Origin: Deltaproteobacteria bacterium Ga0077539
Lineage (GTDB): Bacteria; Myxococcota_A; Polyangia; Polyangiales; Ga0077539
Direction of reading: 5' to 3'
Assembly (NCBI GenBank): GCA_001465015.1
Contig: LNEO01000200.1
Coordinates: 1-64,000 of the forward strand
Length of the DNA stretch: 64,000 nt
Shown: piece after piece, positions 28,910 to 44,573 of the stretch
How positions within the stretch are numbered: the stretch's first letter is position 1
Layout: the number at the start of each line of letters is the position of its first letter
Position numbers and translations under genes: made by a program
The notes under the pieces: generated by a model
The model's database searches: none
Told to the model about the DNA's origin: nothing
Seen by the model: the letters and a program-made list of their open reading frames with translations, nothing else

Positions 28910-30316
28910 ATGACGTCCAGCCGTTCCTCGTGGAGGCCCTCCGGCGCCGGTTCCGACGGAACGGTGATGGTCACCCACCGTTACGAACCGGTCGCCGAAA
29001 TCGGCGTCGGTGGAATGGGCGCGGTCGTCCTCGCCCGAGCGCTCTCGGGCCCGAGCGCCGGCGAGTACGTCGCGATGAAGCGCTTGCTGCCGCACCTCGC
29101 GCAAGAGCCCGAGGTGCTCAAGGCGTTTCTCGACGAGGTGTACGTCATCTCGGCGATGCACCACCCGCACATCGTCGAGTCCATCGATTGGGGCGAAGAC
29201 CGCGACGGGCGCTTTCTCGTGATGCAGTTCGTCGCGGGCGACTCGCTGCGCGCCCTCGTTCACGCGCGCGAGGCCGCCCAGGCGCCGCTCCCGACAGACT
29301 TCATCGCCGAGGTCGTCGCTTGCGCTGCGCTCGGGCTCCACGCCGCGCACACCGTCGAGGCCGAGGGGAGAGAACTCGGGATCGTTCACCAAGACGTCTC
29401 GCCAGCAAACGTGCTCGTCGGCTACGACGGAAGCGTCAAGGTCATCGACTTCGGCGTCGCGCGCATCCTCTCGCGCGGCGAAGACTCCAGCACGCAGACG
29501 ATCCGCGGAAAGTTCGGCTACATGTCGCCCGAACAAATCCGAGGATTCTCCCTCGATCACCGCTCGGATCTGTTCTCGCTCGGCGTCGTGTTCTGGGAGG
29601 CGCTCACGCTCTGTCGGCTCTACCAGGCGAAGGACGAGTTCGAAGTCGCTCGCCTGGTCATCAACGAAGAGCCCGTCTCTCCCAGCGAGATTCGCCAGGG
29701 GATCGACCCAGCGCTCGACCGCATCGTCCTGCGATGCCTCGCGAAGAACCTCGACTACCGCTACGCCGACGGACGCGAGCTCGCGCGGGACCTCGAGCCC
29801 TTTCGACCGCCCCCCGCGCAGCGCGCAGAGGTCGTCGCCCACGTCACCCGCCAGTCGATGCCCGAGCGCTTCGCGTGGATCGAGAGCGTCACCAAGCGAA
29901 GCCTCAAGATCCCGCCCCGAACGATCGAGATCGAGCAGCCGAGGCCCCTTCGACCGAGCCAGAATCAGCTGCCAGTCGCGCCCGAACACGCGACCCCGAG
30001 CGCTCAGCCGACGCAGCAGACCGCGGCGCCCGTCGCATTTGCTCCCACCCCCGCGGCCGCGCCGACCGCGAGCGCCGCGCAAGCTCATCAGATCCTCGGC
30101 GCTCCCGCGTCTCCGTCTGCGCCCTCCACGCAGCCGATGCCCTCCGCGCAATCGACCGCGATCGCGCCCACCCGCGGTTCGACCGCGAACAAACCAGCGC
30201 CCAGCGCTCCGAAGAAACCAGCCGCTCGTCCGATGAACATCGGCGTCCGGATCGGAGCGCTCGCCGCGATCGCGATCGTCGCCCTCGTGATCGGACTCGT
30301 GCTCGGCAGCCGCTAG
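28910..30316 (+). CDS. Tail-anchored Ser/Thr protein kinase with HQD catalytic loop
   Basis: A 468-residue protein. The kinase domain spans about residues 22-295: IGVGGMGAVVLA, VAMKRL, IVHQDVSPANVLVG, IDFGVAR and MSPEQI. The catalytic loop has Gln in place of the Arg of HRD while keeping the Asp and Asn, so it may be an activation-loop-independent ('non-RD') enzyme. A Pro/Ala/Thr linker of about 100 residues leads to a single helix at the extreme C-terminus (IGALAAIAIVALVIGLVLG), leaving almost nothing outside the membrane. An ATG at 28966 is an alternative start that would remove a Ser-rich N-terminus. Confidence 0.86.
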   Translation: MTSSRSSWRPSGAGSDGTVMVTHRYEPVAEIGVGGMGAVVLARALSGPSAGEYVAMKRLLPHLAQEPEVLKAFLDEVYVISAMHHPHIVESIDWGEDRDGRFLVMQFVAGDSLRALVHAREAAQAPLPTDFIAEVVACAALGLHAAHTVEAEGRELGIVHQDVSPANVLVGYDGSVKVIDFGVARILSRGEDSSTQTIRGKFGYMSPEQIRGFSLDHRSDLFSLGVVFWEALTLCRLYQAKDEFEVARLVINEEPVSPSEIRQGIDPALDRIVLRCLAKNLDYRYADGRELARDLEPFRPPPAQRAEVVAHVTRQSMPERFAWIESVTKRSLKIPPRTIEIEQPRPLRPSQNQLPVAPEHATPSAQPTQQTAAPVAFAPTPAAAPTASAAQAHQILGAPASPSAPSTQPMPSAQSTAIAPTRGSTANKPAPSAPKKPAARPMNIGVRIGALAAIAIVALVIGLVLGSR

Positions 30317-36425: not shown

Positions 36426-37721
36426 TCATGCGCGCGGGAGGGTGACGCGGACGCGCGTTCCGCCAGCGTCGAGGGCGGTGATCGAAAACGTTCCGCGCAG
36501 AAGCTCGATGCGCTCGCGCATGCCGTCGACGCCGCGGCCCGAGCGCTCGCCGCTTCGGTCGTAGCCGCGCCCGTCGTCCTCGACCTCGAGCTCGATCGTC
36601 CGGTCCTTCTCGCAGAGCGAGACACGCACGCGCCGCGCGTTTGCGTGCCGTGCCACGTTGGTGAGCGACTCCTGGACGATGCGATACAGCGCGACCTCGA
36701 TCGCCGGCTCGAGCCCGTTCGGCGCGTCGATCGAGCGCTCCGCGATGCACCCGGTCTGCTCGCAAAACGCGTCGATCGCCCGCGAGAGCGAAGCCTCGAG
36801 CCCCACCTCGTCGAGCACCGCCGGACCCAATCGGGCGAGCGAGCGCCGCAGCTCTTCGAGCGCCGCGTCGGTCGTCTCGGTGACTCGAACGAGCACTTCG
36901 CGCTGCTCTTTCGCGGCGCCCTCGTCGGCGAGCTCCGCCGCGAGCTGCGCGTGGATGCGAATCGCGGTGAGCGCCTGCCCGACCGAGTCGTGAAGGTCGC
37001 GACCGATCGCGCGGCGCTCGTTTTCTTGCAGCGTCACGGCGCGCGCAGCGGTGGCCTTGAGCTCGACGTACGCGCGGTCGAGCGCTTCGGTGCGCTCTGC
37101 GACGTCGCGCTCGAGCCCCTCGTTGAGCGTCGCGAGCTCTGATCGCGAGCGCTCGAGGTCCGAGACCAACGCGACGATCCGCGACGCGGCGCGGGCGGCG
37201 GTCCGAATGGACAGGGCGTACACGAGCCACCCGAGCACGATCGACAGCGTCGAGAACACCGCCAGCAGAACCAACGACGCAGCCCGCAGCGGCGAAAGCG
37301 CCATCGCGACCCAGACCGTCCCGACGGTCTGTCCGCGGACGCGGACCGCGCGATCGCACCACACGAGGGCGGAGGACGACGGAGGCGCACCCGCGGCGAC
37401 GCCGGCGTCGTCGTACACCTGCATCGCAGCGACGGCCGCGCGCGATCGCAGCGCGCGCAAGTGCGCCACGATCTTGATCGAGTCGTACCGCCACAGACGC
37501 GGTCGCTCTTGAGCCTCGCGCGAGAGGTCCTCTGCTGCCCGGGCGGCGATCGTCGTGCAATCCGCCCGGAGCTCTCGCACGCCGACGACGTGATGGGCCA
37601 CCGGCGCGCCGAGCGCGAGCAGCGTCGCGAGCGTCACCACCAACGGCGCGAGCCGCGCGCGCAACGGCGCGAGGAGCTCGTCGCCACGGGGCTCGGAGCT
37701 GGCGTCGTCACGCTCGGTCAC
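36426..37721 (-). CDS. NarL/DesK-type sensor histidine kinase
   Basis: A 431-residue kinase. Two membrane helices (about residues 24-46 and 145-170) flank an extracytoplasmic sensor of about 100 residues. A coiled coil follows (DLERSRSELATLNEGLERD). HisKA_3 dimerisation carries the phospho-His in RRAIGRDLHDSVGQAL (about 239), and the ATPase domain has LTNVARHANARRV, VEDDGRGYD and GRGVDGMRERI. Partners of this class are NarL-type regulators; none is adjacent. The GTG start overlaps the stop of the binding-protein gene (GTGA), so the sensor is coupled to that exported protein. Confidence 0.9.
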   Translation of the reverse strand: MTERDDASSEPRGDELLAPLRARLAPLVVTLATLLALGAPVAHHVVGVRELRADCTTIAARAAEDLSREAQERPRLWRYDSIKIVAHLRALRSRAAVAAMQVYDDAGVAAGAPPSSSALVWCDRAVRVRGQTVGTVWVAMALSPLRAASLVLLAVFSTLSIVLGWLVYALSIRTAARAASRIVALVSDLERSRSELATLNEGLERDVAERTEALDRAYVELKATAARAVTLQENERRAIGRDLHDSVGQALTAIRIHAQLAAELADEGAAKEQREVLVRVTETTDAALEELRRSLARLGPAVLDEVGLEASLSRAIDAFCEQTGCIAERSIDAPNGLEPAIEVALYRIVQESLTNVARHANARRVRVSLCEKDRTIELEVEDDGRGYDRSGERSGRGVDGMRERIELLRGTFSITALDAGGTRVRVTLPRA

Positions 37722-38617
37722 GGCGCGCCTCCTTGCGGCTCGACCGTGAGAAATCCGCTCTCTTCGATGATCGACTGCCCCGCGTTCGACCGAACGAAGC
37801 GAAGAAAACTCTCGGCTAACGGGTGCGTGCTCGCGTGCACGAGCGCGACGAACGGCTTGACCAGCGGATAGCGACCCGTGAGCGCGTTTTCTCGGGTCGG
37901 CGCGACGCCGTCGAGCGCGAGCACGACGAGCGGTAGCCGGTCGATCGCGCTCGCCCCGAGGTCGGTGAGCCCGACGGAGCCGGTCGTCGACAACAGGGAG
38001 AAGCGAAGCTCGACGTCTGAATATAGAACACGAAATCGAGTCGCCTCTTGCGCCTCGCGCTCGGCCTGGCGAAATCCCGCGACCCTCGCGACGGCCGCGC
38101 GATGACTCGAGTCGCCTCGCTCGCGAGAGAGAAAGACCCGCGGCGACCCGTCGCTCCACGCGCTCGGCTCACCACGCAAGAGCGCCACCAGCGCCGCGGT
38201 GCTGATCGATCGATCGACGACCGCGGGGTGCGCGGCGAACACCACGACGGACCACGCGTAAGGGTGTTGAGCGAGCGTCGCCGCAGGCCCCGAGCGCTCT
38301 TCGGGCGACAGCGGCCGAGAGAGCAGCCCGATGTGCACGGCGCGATCGCGCACCGCCTGCACCGCGCCAGTGCTGCCGATGCTCGCGTGCAGGACGAACG
38401 CGCCGCGCGTCTGCTCCCTCCACGCCTCGAGCAGCCTTCGGGTGAGCGGCAGGTTCGAGCCGGATCCTGCGACCTCGAGCGCCGCTTCGCTCGCGCGAAG
38501 GGTCGATGCGTTTGCACCGGCGCGGGGCGACGGTCGCGGACCGGACTCTGCGCCGATGGCGACCGCGAGCGCGACAGCCGACAGGGTCGCGGCGATCGCG
38601 ATCGACGGTCTGCTCAG
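37718..38617 (-). CDS. PstS-like substrate-binding protein
   Basis: A 299-residue exported protein. A signal peptide (SIAIAATLSAVALAVAIGAES) precedes LEVAGSGSNLPLTRRLLEAW, the anion-loop region of PstS-type proteins; IGSTGAVQAVRD, VGLTDLGASA and FLRFVRSNAGQSIIEESGF complete the match. It likely binds phosphate or another oxyanion. No Pst permease is near; instead it lies between a phosphoesterase and a histidine kinase, so it may present ligand to the sensor. No ATG or GTG fits: the CTG at 38617 overlaps the upstream stop (CTGA) and has GGGGGCGAG just before it. Confidence 0.8.
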   Translation of the reverse strand: MSRPSIAIAATLSAVALAVAIGAESGPRPSPRAGANASTLRASEAALEVAGSGSNLPLTRRLLEAWREQTRGAFVLHASIGSTGAVQAVRDRAVHIGLLSRPLSPEERSGPAATLAQHPYAWSVVVFAAHPAVVDRSISTAALVALLRGEPSAWSDGSPRVFLSRERGDSSHRAAVARVAGFRQAEREAQEATRFRVLYSDVELRFSLLSTTGSVGLTDLGASAIDRLPLVVLALDGVAPTRENALTGRYPLVKPFVALVHASTHPLAESFLRFVRSNAGQSIIEESGFLTVEPQGGAP

Positions 38618-39759
38618 CGCTCGCCCCCAGCGGCCTTGCGCTCGGGCTCGACCGCCACTTCTTCGCTGCGCTGCACGTCCCGTGAGCTCTGCGCGACGCC
38701 AGTCGCGTGCGTCCCAGTGATGGGCGGAACGCGCTTGGTGCTGTGCGGTCCGCTCGCGTCCGCGTCGCGCTTGACGCGATGGTGAACGTTCGGGGACCGA
38801 TGATGGGCGTCTGGCCTGGTCATCGGCTCGGCTGGCGTTCCCGCGCGGTGCAAGGGCGCCTTGGGCGCGACGCCCGCGTGCGGCGTCCTGCGCTCGTCCC
38901 ACGGCTGACCGTCCCGCCAACAGGCGTCACCGCTCGTGCCCCAGCCCGCGAGCACGGCCCGACCGTCCCGCCATTCGGTCCAGAACACGGCGCCATCGGG
39001 GCGCGAGGCCTGATCGAGGCAGGCGATTCGAGTCTCTGTTCCGTCCGCGTGACGAACGACGGTGGCGAATGGAACGTGCGAGTGTCCGCAAAACAGCCAA
39101 CGCGGACGCATGCGCTCGACGAGCGAGCGGGCGACCTGGTTGCCGATCCACGGCGTGTGAAACGCCCGAAAATCCTTGTGAATCCCGCGTGATGTCGCGG
39201 GCGCGCGCGACGCCAGCCCTCGCGGCCACTCGTGGGTGAGCACGATATCCGCGGTCGAGACCGCGTCGAGCGCTCGCACTTCGTCGTGCCGGAAGTAACC
39301 CGCCTGCCGACAAGCGTCCGGCGTCGTCGGCGGCAACAGCGGTTTGTCGACGTACCGAGGCGCGTAGATACCCGAGAGCCACGCGACGTCGAAACCCGAG
39401 ATCGACTGGGCGCCGACGCGACCGAGAAAGTGCATGTTCGGCGCGACGAGGCCACCCTCGGGCATCGAGTGCAACGCCTCGAAGTCCTCGTTGTTGCCGC
39501 CGATGAAGTGCAACGGCCGCTCGAAGGCGCATCGGCCCGAGACGTAGTCCGCGAACTCCGCGGGCATCGCCCGTTTGGCGGCCTTGCGCCGGTGATCGTC
39601 GGCCGTGAGAAAAGCCTCGATGTCGCCGACCGCCAGGACGAGCGTAGCCGAGCGCCCGCGGGCGCTCTCGAGCGCCGCGATCCACTCTCTCACGCGATGG
39701 AATCGGCCGTGAATGTCGCCGACCACCACCACGAGGGCACTCTTTGTGGCCTCGCTCAT
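38614..39759 (-). CDS. DBR1-like metallophosphoesterase with a GNNE motif
   Basis: A 381-residue protein. Metallophosphoesterase motifs: GDIHGR (14-19), GDIEAF (45-50), GGNNED (87-92), LTHEWPR (about 174-180) and GHSH (225-228). Several stretches follow eukaryotic lariat-debranching enzyme DBR1 in order: EGGLVAPNMHFLGRVG, WLSGIYA, FRHDEVRAL, DIVLTHEWPRG, RPRWLFCGHSHVPFA. The normally invariant His of GNHE is Asn here, although the other metal ligands are kept. The last 95 residues are polar and probably disordered. No signal peptide. It is first in an operon with a PstS-like protein and a histidine kinase, coupled by CTGA and GTGA overlaps. Confidence 0.82.
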   Translation of the reverse strand: MSEATKSALVVVVGDIHGRFHRVREWIAALESARGRSATLVLAVGDIEAFLTADDHRRKAAKRAMPAEFADYVSGRCAFERPLHFIGGNNEDFEALHSMPEGGLVAPNMHFLGRVGAQSISGFDVAWLSGIYAPRYVDKPLLPPTTPDACRQAGYFRHDEVRALDAVSTADIVLTHEWPRGLASRAPATSRGIHKDFRAFHTPWIGNQVARSLVERMRPRWLFCGHSHVPFATVVRHADGTETRIACLDQASRPDGAVFWTEWRDGRAVLAGWGTSGDACWRDGQPWDERRTPHAGVAPKAPLHRAGTPAEPMTRPDAHHRSPNVHHRVKRDADASGPHSTKRVPPITGTHATGVAQSSRDVQRSEEVAVEPERKAAGGER

Positions 39760-40194: not shown

Positions 40195-40974
40195 CTATTG
40201 CGACAGGACGTAGCGCAGCGCGCTCGTGGCGCGTCGTCGCCAGGATCGTTCGCTGTGCGTTCCCCGAGGGTCGATGCGCAGGTGGAGATCGTCTCCATGG
40301 CGCCACCCTCGAACGGCTAGGAGCTCGGACATGCGGGCGGCGTCGCGCGCCAGCGTTCCGCGGGCTTCTCGGCGACCTGCGTCGAGATAGATCCGCGTCG
40401 ACCAGGGCCGAGGCGTCTTCTCGGCGACGTCGAAGATCGCCCCGGATCCGAGCCAGAACGACGGCGACATCGCGAGCACTCTCCCAAACGCCTCGGGCCG
40501 ACGGAGATGGGTGTACATCGCCGCGAGGCCGCCCATCGACGATCCGCCGATCACCACGCCGCTCGGCCCGTCATCGATCTCGAACTGCGACCTCACCGCG
40601 GGGATGAGCGTGCTCGCGAGCCAGTCTGCCAGCGGATCGAGCTTGGGCTCTCCGAAGCGCGTCTTGACCCAGCTCAGCTCGTTGATCCTGCGCTCGTGCC
40701 CGTGGTCGACAGCGACCACGATCGGCGCAGGTCTACGCACGCGCGCCAGCCGCTCGACCGCCGCGTGCAGGTGCCACCCGCCCGCGAACGAGGGCTCGTC
40801 GTCGAATACGTTTTGTCCATCGAACATCACGACGAGCGGCCGCGGTCGTCCCGGCCTCTTCGCTTGCGCCGGGACGTACGTGCGAACGACGCGATAGCCA
40901 TCGACGTGGGGGATTGGGTGGTGTGTCACGTGTACGGCACCATGCCGTAGCCCGCTCGGACCGATCAGGTTCAT
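40195..40974 (-). CDS. Esterase D / enterochelin-esterase-like alpha/beta hydrolase
   Basis: A 259-residue hydrolase of the putative esterase family. PLVVMFDGQNVFDD begins the core sheet, VIGGSSMGGLAAMY holds the nucleophile Ser, MSPSFWLG follows, and a C-terminal GTHSERSW supplies the catalytic His. No signal peptide, so it is cytoplasmic. Natural substrates of this family include siderophore esters and formylglutathione; this one is closer to the general iron-siderophore esterase-like group and cannot be narrowed. It is divergent from the alcohol dehydrogenase-like gene, 112 bases away. Confidence 0.85.
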   Translation of the reverse strand: MNLIGPSGLRHGAVHVTHHPIPHVDGYRVVRTYVPAQAKRPGRPRPLVVMFDGQNVFDDEPSFAGGWHLHAAVERLARVRRPAPIVVAVDHGHERRINELSWVKTRFGEPKLDPLADWLASTLIPAVRSQFEIDDGPSGVVIGGSSMGGLAAMYTHLRRPEAFGRVLAMSPSFWLGSGAIFDVAEKTPRPWSTRIYLDAGRREARGTLARDAARMSELLAVRGWRHGDDLHLRIDPRGTHSERSWRRRATSALRYVLSQ

Positions 40975-41086
40975 ACGAGGGTGGTGCCCTAGTGCGTCTT
41001 GGTCGCAACGTAAAGAACCCGTATCGTGGTACGGAGACGCGTCGCCCTCGACAGCGTCGAGCCTGCGCGGCAAAGGAACCACCGCC

Positions 41087-42055
41087 ATGCGCGCGCTCGT
41101 CCTCGACCAAAGTCACGTGACGCTCGCCCGCGATCGGGCGTCGCCTGATCGCCGCGCGGGCGAGGCGATCATCCGGGTCGACCTCGCTGGAATTTGCGAC
41201 ACAGATATTCAACTAGCCCGCGGATACATGGGGTATTCTGGCGTTCTTGGGCACGAGTTCGTGGGCACCGTGATCGAGAGCGAGACGCCCTCGCTGCGGG
41301 GTCGTCGCGTCGTGGCAGACATCAACGCGAGCTGCGGCGCCTGCGAGGACTGCCTCGAGCGCGACGGCCATCACTGCGCGGCGCGCACGGTGCTCGGGAT
41401 CCTCGCGCGAGACGGCGCGTTGGCCGACCGCGTGGCGATCCCCGAGCGGCGCCTCGTGCCCGTGAGCGACGCGCTCGACGACCAGCGCGCGGTGTTCGCC
41501 GAGCCCGTGGCCGCGGCGCTCCACGTGCTCGACGCAAACTCCTTCAGCGTTCCTTCGCGCGCCATTGTCGTGGGCGACGGAAAGCTCGGGCTGCTCATCG
41601 CGCTCGCTCTTCGCGGCGCGGGAGTCGAGACGCTCGTGGTCGGTCACCACGAGCGAAAGCTGGCCATCGCCCGCGCGGTTGACTGCCGAACCGCGCTCGA
41701 GAGCTCGCTCGACGATCGCTCGACGCGCGCGCTGCGAGCGCCGCTCGTCGTGGACGCGACAGGATCCGCCACGGGCCTCGCGCGCGCCCTCTCGCTCACT
41801 GCCCCGCGCGGAACGCTGGTCCTGAAGACGACAGTGGCCGAGGCGGTCAGCATCGACACCGCGAGGGTGGTGGTCGACGAGATCAACATCGTGGGCTCGC
41901 GCTGCGGGGACATGTCGCGCGCCGTCACGATGCTCGAAAACGGCAACGTCGATCCGACGCCGTTGATCGAGGCCCGCTACTCGCTCGACGAAGCGGACCG
42001 AGCGTTCGAGCACGCGCAGCGCAAAGGAGCCCTCAAGGTGCTCGTCGCTCCGTAG
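41087..42055 (+). CDS. Zinc-type medium-chain alcohol/polyol dehydrogenase
   Basis: A 322-residue MDR protein. AGICDTDIQLARGYM and LGHEFVG carry the catalytic-zinc ligands (Cys, His, Glu), NASCGACEDCLERDGHHC holds the four structural-zinc Cys, and VVGDGKLGLLIALAL is a GxGxxG-like NAD(P) site. It is slightly shorter than the 340-350 residues usual for this family. Substrate unknown; sorbitol- and threonine-type enzymes share these motifs. The MlaF-like gene starts 50 bases after its stop. Confidence 0.87.
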   Translation: MRALVLDQSHVTLARDRASPDRRAGEAIIRVDLAGICDTDIQLARGYMGYSGVLGHEFVGTVIESETPSLRGRRVVADINASCGACEDCLERDGHHCAARTVLGILARDGALADRVAIPERRLVPVSDALDDQRAVFAEPVAAALHVLDANSFSVPSRAIVVGDGKLGLLIALALRGAGVETLVVGHHERKLAIARAVDCRTALESSLDDRSTRALRAPLVVDATGSATGLARALSLTAPRGTLVLKTTVAEAVSIDTARVVVDEINIVGSRCGDMSRAVTMLENGNVDPTPLIEARYSLDEADRAFEHAQRKGALKVLVAP

Positions 42056-44489: not shown

Positions 44490-44573
44490 GCGAGCGTGGC
44501 GGAATTGGCAGACGCACTGGATTCAGGTTCCAGCGGGGTAACACCCGTGAAGGTTCAAGTCCTTTCGCTCGCA
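44490..44573 (+). tRNA. tRNA-Leu (CAG)
   Basis: Acceptor stem GCGAGCG pairs with CGCTCGC, discriminator A. The anticodon stem CTGGA/TCCAG closes TTCAGGT with anticodon CAG. The long variable arm (CGGGGTAACACCCG) is typical of tRNA-Leu, and the T-loop reads GTTCAAGTC. The encoded 3' end is CTA, so CCA must be added or repaired. Confidence 0.96.

Follow-up and report, generated by a model that had tools for sequence, protein, structure and literature searches.

The locus described here raises the question of what a bacterial protein can do when it has the motif order of the RNA lariat debranching enzyme DBR1 and carries asparagine in place of the catalytic histidine of block III. The gene lies in the window (the whole stretch of 64,000 nucleotides that was analysed, from a genome of the Myxococcota), and it is listed with its neighbours in Table 1.

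Table 1. Position of the phosphoesterase gene, of two segments within it and of the adjacent genes in the window.
Feature	Coordinates	Strand	Remarks
DBR1/Drn1-like metallophosphoesterase, GGNNE in block III	38614..39759	minus	381 aa, ATG start, Pfam and PDB matches
Block III GGNNE codons, residues 87-91	39487..39501	minus	Coordinates computed from residue numbering
Segment aligned with DBR1 lariat recognition loop, residues 128-162, LSGIYAPRYVDKPLLPPTTPDACRQAGYFRHDEVR	39274..39378	minus	Alignment; low model confidence there
PstS-family substrate-binding protein (PF12849), next gene downstream	37718..38641	minus	Pfam; start approximate
Sensor histidine kinase (HisKA_3 / HATPase_c, UhpB/NarX-like), downstream	36426..38159	minus	ORF as listed; true start probably near 37720
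Putative esterase (PF00756), upstream gene	40195..41088	minus	Pfam; order conserved in four genomes

The gene and its motifs

The encoded protein consists of a core conserved within the family (residues 9–290) and a variable tail (approximately residues 295–381) that is probably disordered, matches nothing in Pfam and, in several relatives, is short or lacking. No open frame was present in the plus strand at 38614–39759. Pfam Metallophos (PF00149) matched the protein at 2e-11, with the block III histidine replaced, and both the five-block motif set and the metallophosphoesterase (MPE) fold of this family were found by Pfam and fold search. No NCBIfam model matched it. All the motifs in DBR1 order that had been read in a preliminary description of the gene were present in the ORF translation and in the alignment, namely GDIHG (residues 14–18), VGD (44–46), GGNNE (87–91), EGGLVAPN (101–108), FLG (111–113), WLSGIY (127–132), THEWPR (175–180) and GHSHVPFA (225–232). 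The change from His to Asn in block III was also confirmed, N90 occupying the position of DBR1 His91. N89 and N90 are encoded by AAC-AAC both in the window and in those relatives for which the codons were examined, indicating that the asparagine is not a sequencing slip. DBR1 itself was correctly said to keep GNHE, as seen in the wild-type sequence from the PDB. The human and yeast DBR1 rows of our alignment keep it as well; the human CWF19L1 row matched the PDB sequence exactly.

Affinity to DBR1 and Drn1

The protein was compared by phmmer with the whole PDB, and below E = 0.1 solely Entamoeba DBR1 chains were obtained (best 4.6e-20); CWF19L1 was non-significant in the same search (0.19). 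Such a resemblance exceeds chance by a wide margin. With a profile of 12 bacterial relatives, DBR1 was matched at 7.6e-43, followed by CWF19L1/Drn1 (7.7e-12) and, no longer significant, by MPPED2 as the next MPE (0.82). DBR1 was also the best match in fold searches with two AlphaFold models, which were built on 4–5 sequences and are of middling confidence (pLDDT 65.9 and 66.2). The Z scores were 17.6 with the first model and 20.6 with the second, while the best fold other than DBR1/Drn1 reached 14.8 and 15.6. Ordinary MPEs from the phylum of the window served as outgroup in the trees, in which the clade of the window protein, a clade of Myxococcota GNHE proteins, DBR1 and Drn1 grouped together with support 89/88, and with 90/92 when a viral-contig sequence was added. 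A wider group, which includes GNHEDF proteins, was split from the ordinary MPEs of the phylum at 97/95.

These results support the earlier claim of a DBR1 affinity as opposed to a place among ordinary bacterial phosphodiesterases, and the phylogeny that had been proposed as a check gave no tree lacking this affinity. The similarity to DBR1 might alternatively reflect nothing but general MPE conservation. In the related bacterial GNHEDF group DBR1 is also the sole PDB match, at a weaker 2e-9, and a placement of DBR1/Drn1 outside all the bacterial relatives was not rejected by the AU test (p = 0.485). Nevertheless, the distance between 7.6e-43 for DBR1 and 0.82 for the best other MPE of the PDB, the 97/95 split and the drop in Z from 20.6 to 15.6 beyond DBR1/Drn1 make an ordinary bacterial MPE a very improbable explanation. 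Joining the GNN-type proteins with DBR1 alone (p = 0.165), with Drn1 alone (0.253) or with a haloarchaeal protein (0.222) was not rejected either. The AU test thus leaves the inner order open: for the wide group as a whole the affinity to DBR1 is established, and a closer kinship of the window clade to DBR1 within it is likely but unproven. A literature search, with most subscription journals outside its reach, gave no report on bacterial DBR1 homologues.

Comparison of the protein with its two nearest PDB families revealed the differences between them. With DBR1 (Entamoeba 4peh and related entries), its best PDB match by sequence and by fold, the window protein shares the MPE core, the motif order and the YLG, SGIY, WP and GHxH segments. 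A segment of similar length (residues 128–162) is aligned with the lariat recognition loop of DBR1, R157 falling opposite its invariant Arg158, in a part of the models that has low confidence. The invariant Cys14 of DBR1, which replaces the usual Asp of block I (PMC4176325), is Asp15 in the window protein, and Asp is found in all the bacterial relatives checked. Asn stands in place of the catalytic His91 and Arg in place of Tyr64, and the helical C-terminal domain of DBR1 (Entamoeba residues 262–354) is missing. Drn1/CWF19L1 (human 8ro2, C. elegans 8ro1) is the second-best PDB family by sequence and fold and, like the window protein, has Asp in block I; the human protein also has Asn at the block III histidine, reading GANNQ in the PDB sequence. 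However, most metal ligands are lost in Drn1, whereas the window protein keeps all seven, and Drn1 carries further Cwf19 C-terminal domains, for which the window protein has no Pfam match.

Distribution and constraint of the block III asparagine

The gene is present in all 13 genomes examined of the Myxococcota family to which the window belongs (5 genera), with GGNN in every one, so that the asparagine is an old fixed trait and not an oddity. Between family members dN/dS is 0.05–0.14 (NG86), i.e. strong purifying selection. The seven metal ligands (D15, H17, D46, N89, H176, H226 and H228) are invariant in the aligned family sequences, and among the catalytic residues the His91 position of DBR1 is the only one that departs from ordinary MPEs. 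The preliminary description had named an asparagine standard among the homologues as an outcome that would speak against its reading, and this is the state seen in the group; the replacement itself is real.

Asparagine is also found in block III (GNNE) of haloarchaeal relatives. YfcE-type enzymes (class III C) have GNCD and are active; YfcE itself, in which GNCD replaces GNHD and the remaining motifs are unaltered, hydrolyses bis-pNPP with Mn2+ (PMC4320098). These enzymes resemble the window protein in lacking the block III histidine and differ from it in belonging to another MPE branch, in their size (~183 aa), in motif spacing and in having Cys rather than Asn. The block III histidine is therefore replaced in several MPE groups, with activity retained in at least one of them, and its loss need not abolish activity.

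Active site and predicted chemistry

Protonation of the 2'-oxygen leaving group in DBR1 is ascribed to His91 (PMC4176325). The DBR1 chains 5k77 and 5k78, which were crystallised with branched RNA, have Ala at this position (GGNAE), as expected if loss of the histidine blocks cleavage of a poor leaving group, and to that extent they count against activity of the window protein. By analogy, human Drn1, with Asn here and non-catalytic (PMC10470207), would count against it too; yet most of its metal ligands have been lost as well.

Three residues, H56, R63 and H201, are invariant in the window clade and absent from the eight GNHE relatives compared, which have L or F at the H56 position and Y or H at the R63 position. 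In the alignment R63 occupies the place of the branch-stacking Tyr64 of DBR1, and H201 is aligned with D205, the guanine-contacting residue. From the missing His91 acid and the invariance of these three residues we infer that either the leaving group has changed or the acid has been relocated. The reading that we prefer, to which we give about an even chance, is that of a DBR1/Drn1-related two-metal phosphodiesterase that is active on a substrate unlike that of DBR1, and not of a lariat debranching enzyme. It would be a cytosolic phosphoesterase of the calcineurin-like type, from a bacterial branch akin to the eukaryotic DBR1 and Drn1, and its metals (Mn, Fe or Zn) would activate a water molecule to attack a phosphodiester, as in other MPEs. 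With Asn90 in the place of the general acid, the leaving group would either be easily expelled or be protonated by another residue. H56 and H201 are the candidate relocated acids, in parts of the protein where the models are weak. The protein is probably an altered but ordinary enzyme, and the GNNE clade lends itself to testing whether a general acid is indispensable to an MPE with two metals.

Gene neighbourhood and a possible binding function

The gene neighbourhood did not indicate a substrate. In the genus of the window and in one further genus, the genes for the esterase, the phosphoesterase, the PstS-like binding protein and the sensor histidine kinase follow one another on one strand. 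At window positions 36426–38641 (minus strand) the PstS-like gene is followed by that of a NarX/UhpB-type kinase, an order found in four genomes. These two proteins possibly form an oxyanion-sensing pair, the transporter genes not lying beside it. In the genus of genome G339 the next gene, which the phosphoesterase gene overlaps, encodes ModA, and a ModC-like ATPase is encoded further on. Two other genera, g2 and g3, instead have an FGE-sulfatase-like gene in convergent orientation beside the phosphoesterase gene. An adjacent gene for an oxyanion-binding protein was found in three GNN-type lineages and in none of the GNHE loci searched (three query proteins). This gives a hint of an oxyanion or phosphate context for GNN-type genes, seen after the fact, differing by genus and not general. 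A tRNA gene at 44490–44573 (plus strand) was the sole Rfam match between positions 30000 and 50000.

Instead of hydrolysing a substrate, the window protein could be a metal-loaded binder or sensor, either an oxyanion binder or a pseudo-enzyme comparable to Drn1 in its relation to DBR1. A phosphorylated ligand or oxyanion would then be held at the bimetal site, and the protein would act through partners such as the neighbouring binding protein and histidine kinase. The asparagine shared with the non-catalytic human Drn1 (PMC10470207) is consistent with such a role, as are the binding-protein and kinase genes adjoining it in four genomes, the ModA and ModC-like genes in the genus of G339 and the tungstate-type TupA and TupB genes that follow a Halorubrum GNNE relative. 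The retention of all the metal ligands, unlike in Drn1, argues against it; moreover, the neighbours vary by genus (the sulfatase-like gene replacing them in g2 and g3), a transporter was found in just one of four haloarchaeal records, and the pattern was noticed after the fact. We regard this explanation, the chief alternative to an active enzyme, as possible but doubtful.

Lariats, retrons and defence

The lariat or 2'-5' substrate suggested in the preliminary description found no support. The Cys, the branchpoint-stacking Tyr and the C-terminal domain of DBR1 are absent, the neighbours are not RNA-processing genes, and nothing connecting the window protein with lariats, retrons or RNA processing came to light. 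A further alternative is a debrancher of retron msDNA or group II intron lariats, acting on 2'-5' linked nucleic acid. Besides the DBR1 affinity, the segment aligned with the lariat recognition loop includes an Arg158 equivalent, and reverse transcriptases (RTs) of type XIII retrons, whose msDNA has a 2'-5' branch, occur in 12 of the 13 family genomes, so that these cells may produce a 2'-5' branched molecule. Against this, the catalytic His is lacking, Arg stands in the place of Tyr64, and block-I Cys and C-terminal domain are missing. The RTs are also common where the gene is lacking (in 24 of 57 genomes of a different Myxococcota class and 10 of 21 in one family), one of the two carriers of a DBR1-like gene in that 21-genome family is devoid of them, and no genetic linkage between phosphoesterase gene and RT was seen. 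Such a debrancher is improbable in our judgement. It is similarly unlikely that the protein is a bacterial counterpart of the DBR1/Drn1 pair, with a full metal site and its general acid replaced, that binds or processes 2'-5' branched nucleic acid such as retron msDNA or an intron lariat.

A specific link to retrons or lariats was rejected as a candidate, type XIII retron RTs being widespread in the phylum and, in the other class with 24 of 57, mostly unaccompanied by a DBR1-like gene. Their counts do not separate lineage from function and hence do not support a debranching role. Three of these RTs are encoded in the window's own genome (G000, contigs C109, C197 and C259).

No PADLOC model matched the window protein at E ≤ 0.01, including the PDC-S10 defence candidate, which its relatives match weakly. 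This model had matches in 10 of 14 control genomes, which places the weak matches of the relatives at superfamily level only. It behaves as a general MPE model, and a defence link through it was rejected. No close relative of the window protein was present in the phage and plasmid records.

Bacterial and archaeal relatives

Both trees place four Myxococcota DBR1-like proteins (L021–L024), from genomes G068, G174, G047 and G135, as closest sisters of the window clade (83/89 and 93/89), and in these proteins the GNHE block is intact. They share the WP and GHMH features and roughly 30–37% identity with the window protein and differ from it in keeping GNHE and in lacking R157, H56 and the C-terminal WGTSGE..W..WDER block of the window clade. 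One of them (L008, the same gene as L021) matched DBR1 in the PDB at 3.7e-29, more strongly than the window protein, which makes these four proteins better candidates for a bacterial debranching activity. The bacterial proteins form a branch beside DBR1 and Drn1 that has Asp, not Cys, in block I and includes GNHE as well as GNNE forms; they provide material on the origins of DBR1 and its non-catalytic partner and on the question of the ancestral substrate.

The haloarchaeal GNNE metallophosphoesterases (Halocatena, Salinigranum, Halorubrum) are distantly similar to the window protein (26%, 6e-6); they differ in length (~210 aa) and in their weak similarity to DBR1 (7.6e-4). They fall outside the window clade in the tree, and a common origin of the asparagine was not rejected (p = 0.222). 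In Halorubrum lacusprofundi pHLAC01 (L135:2001-4633) the GNNE gene is immediately followed by genes of a TupA/TupB-type tungstate transporter.

A GNHE DBR1-like phosphoesterase with a PDB match to DBR1 at 1e-26 is encoded in a viral contig (IMGVR_UViG_3300001567_000262, L101:4998-5774). The tree puts it beside DBR1/Drn1, a weakly supported position. Its gene follows immediately on PglZ-like and BrxL genes, with a Fic-type gene downstream of it, and in this setting it looks BREX-associated.
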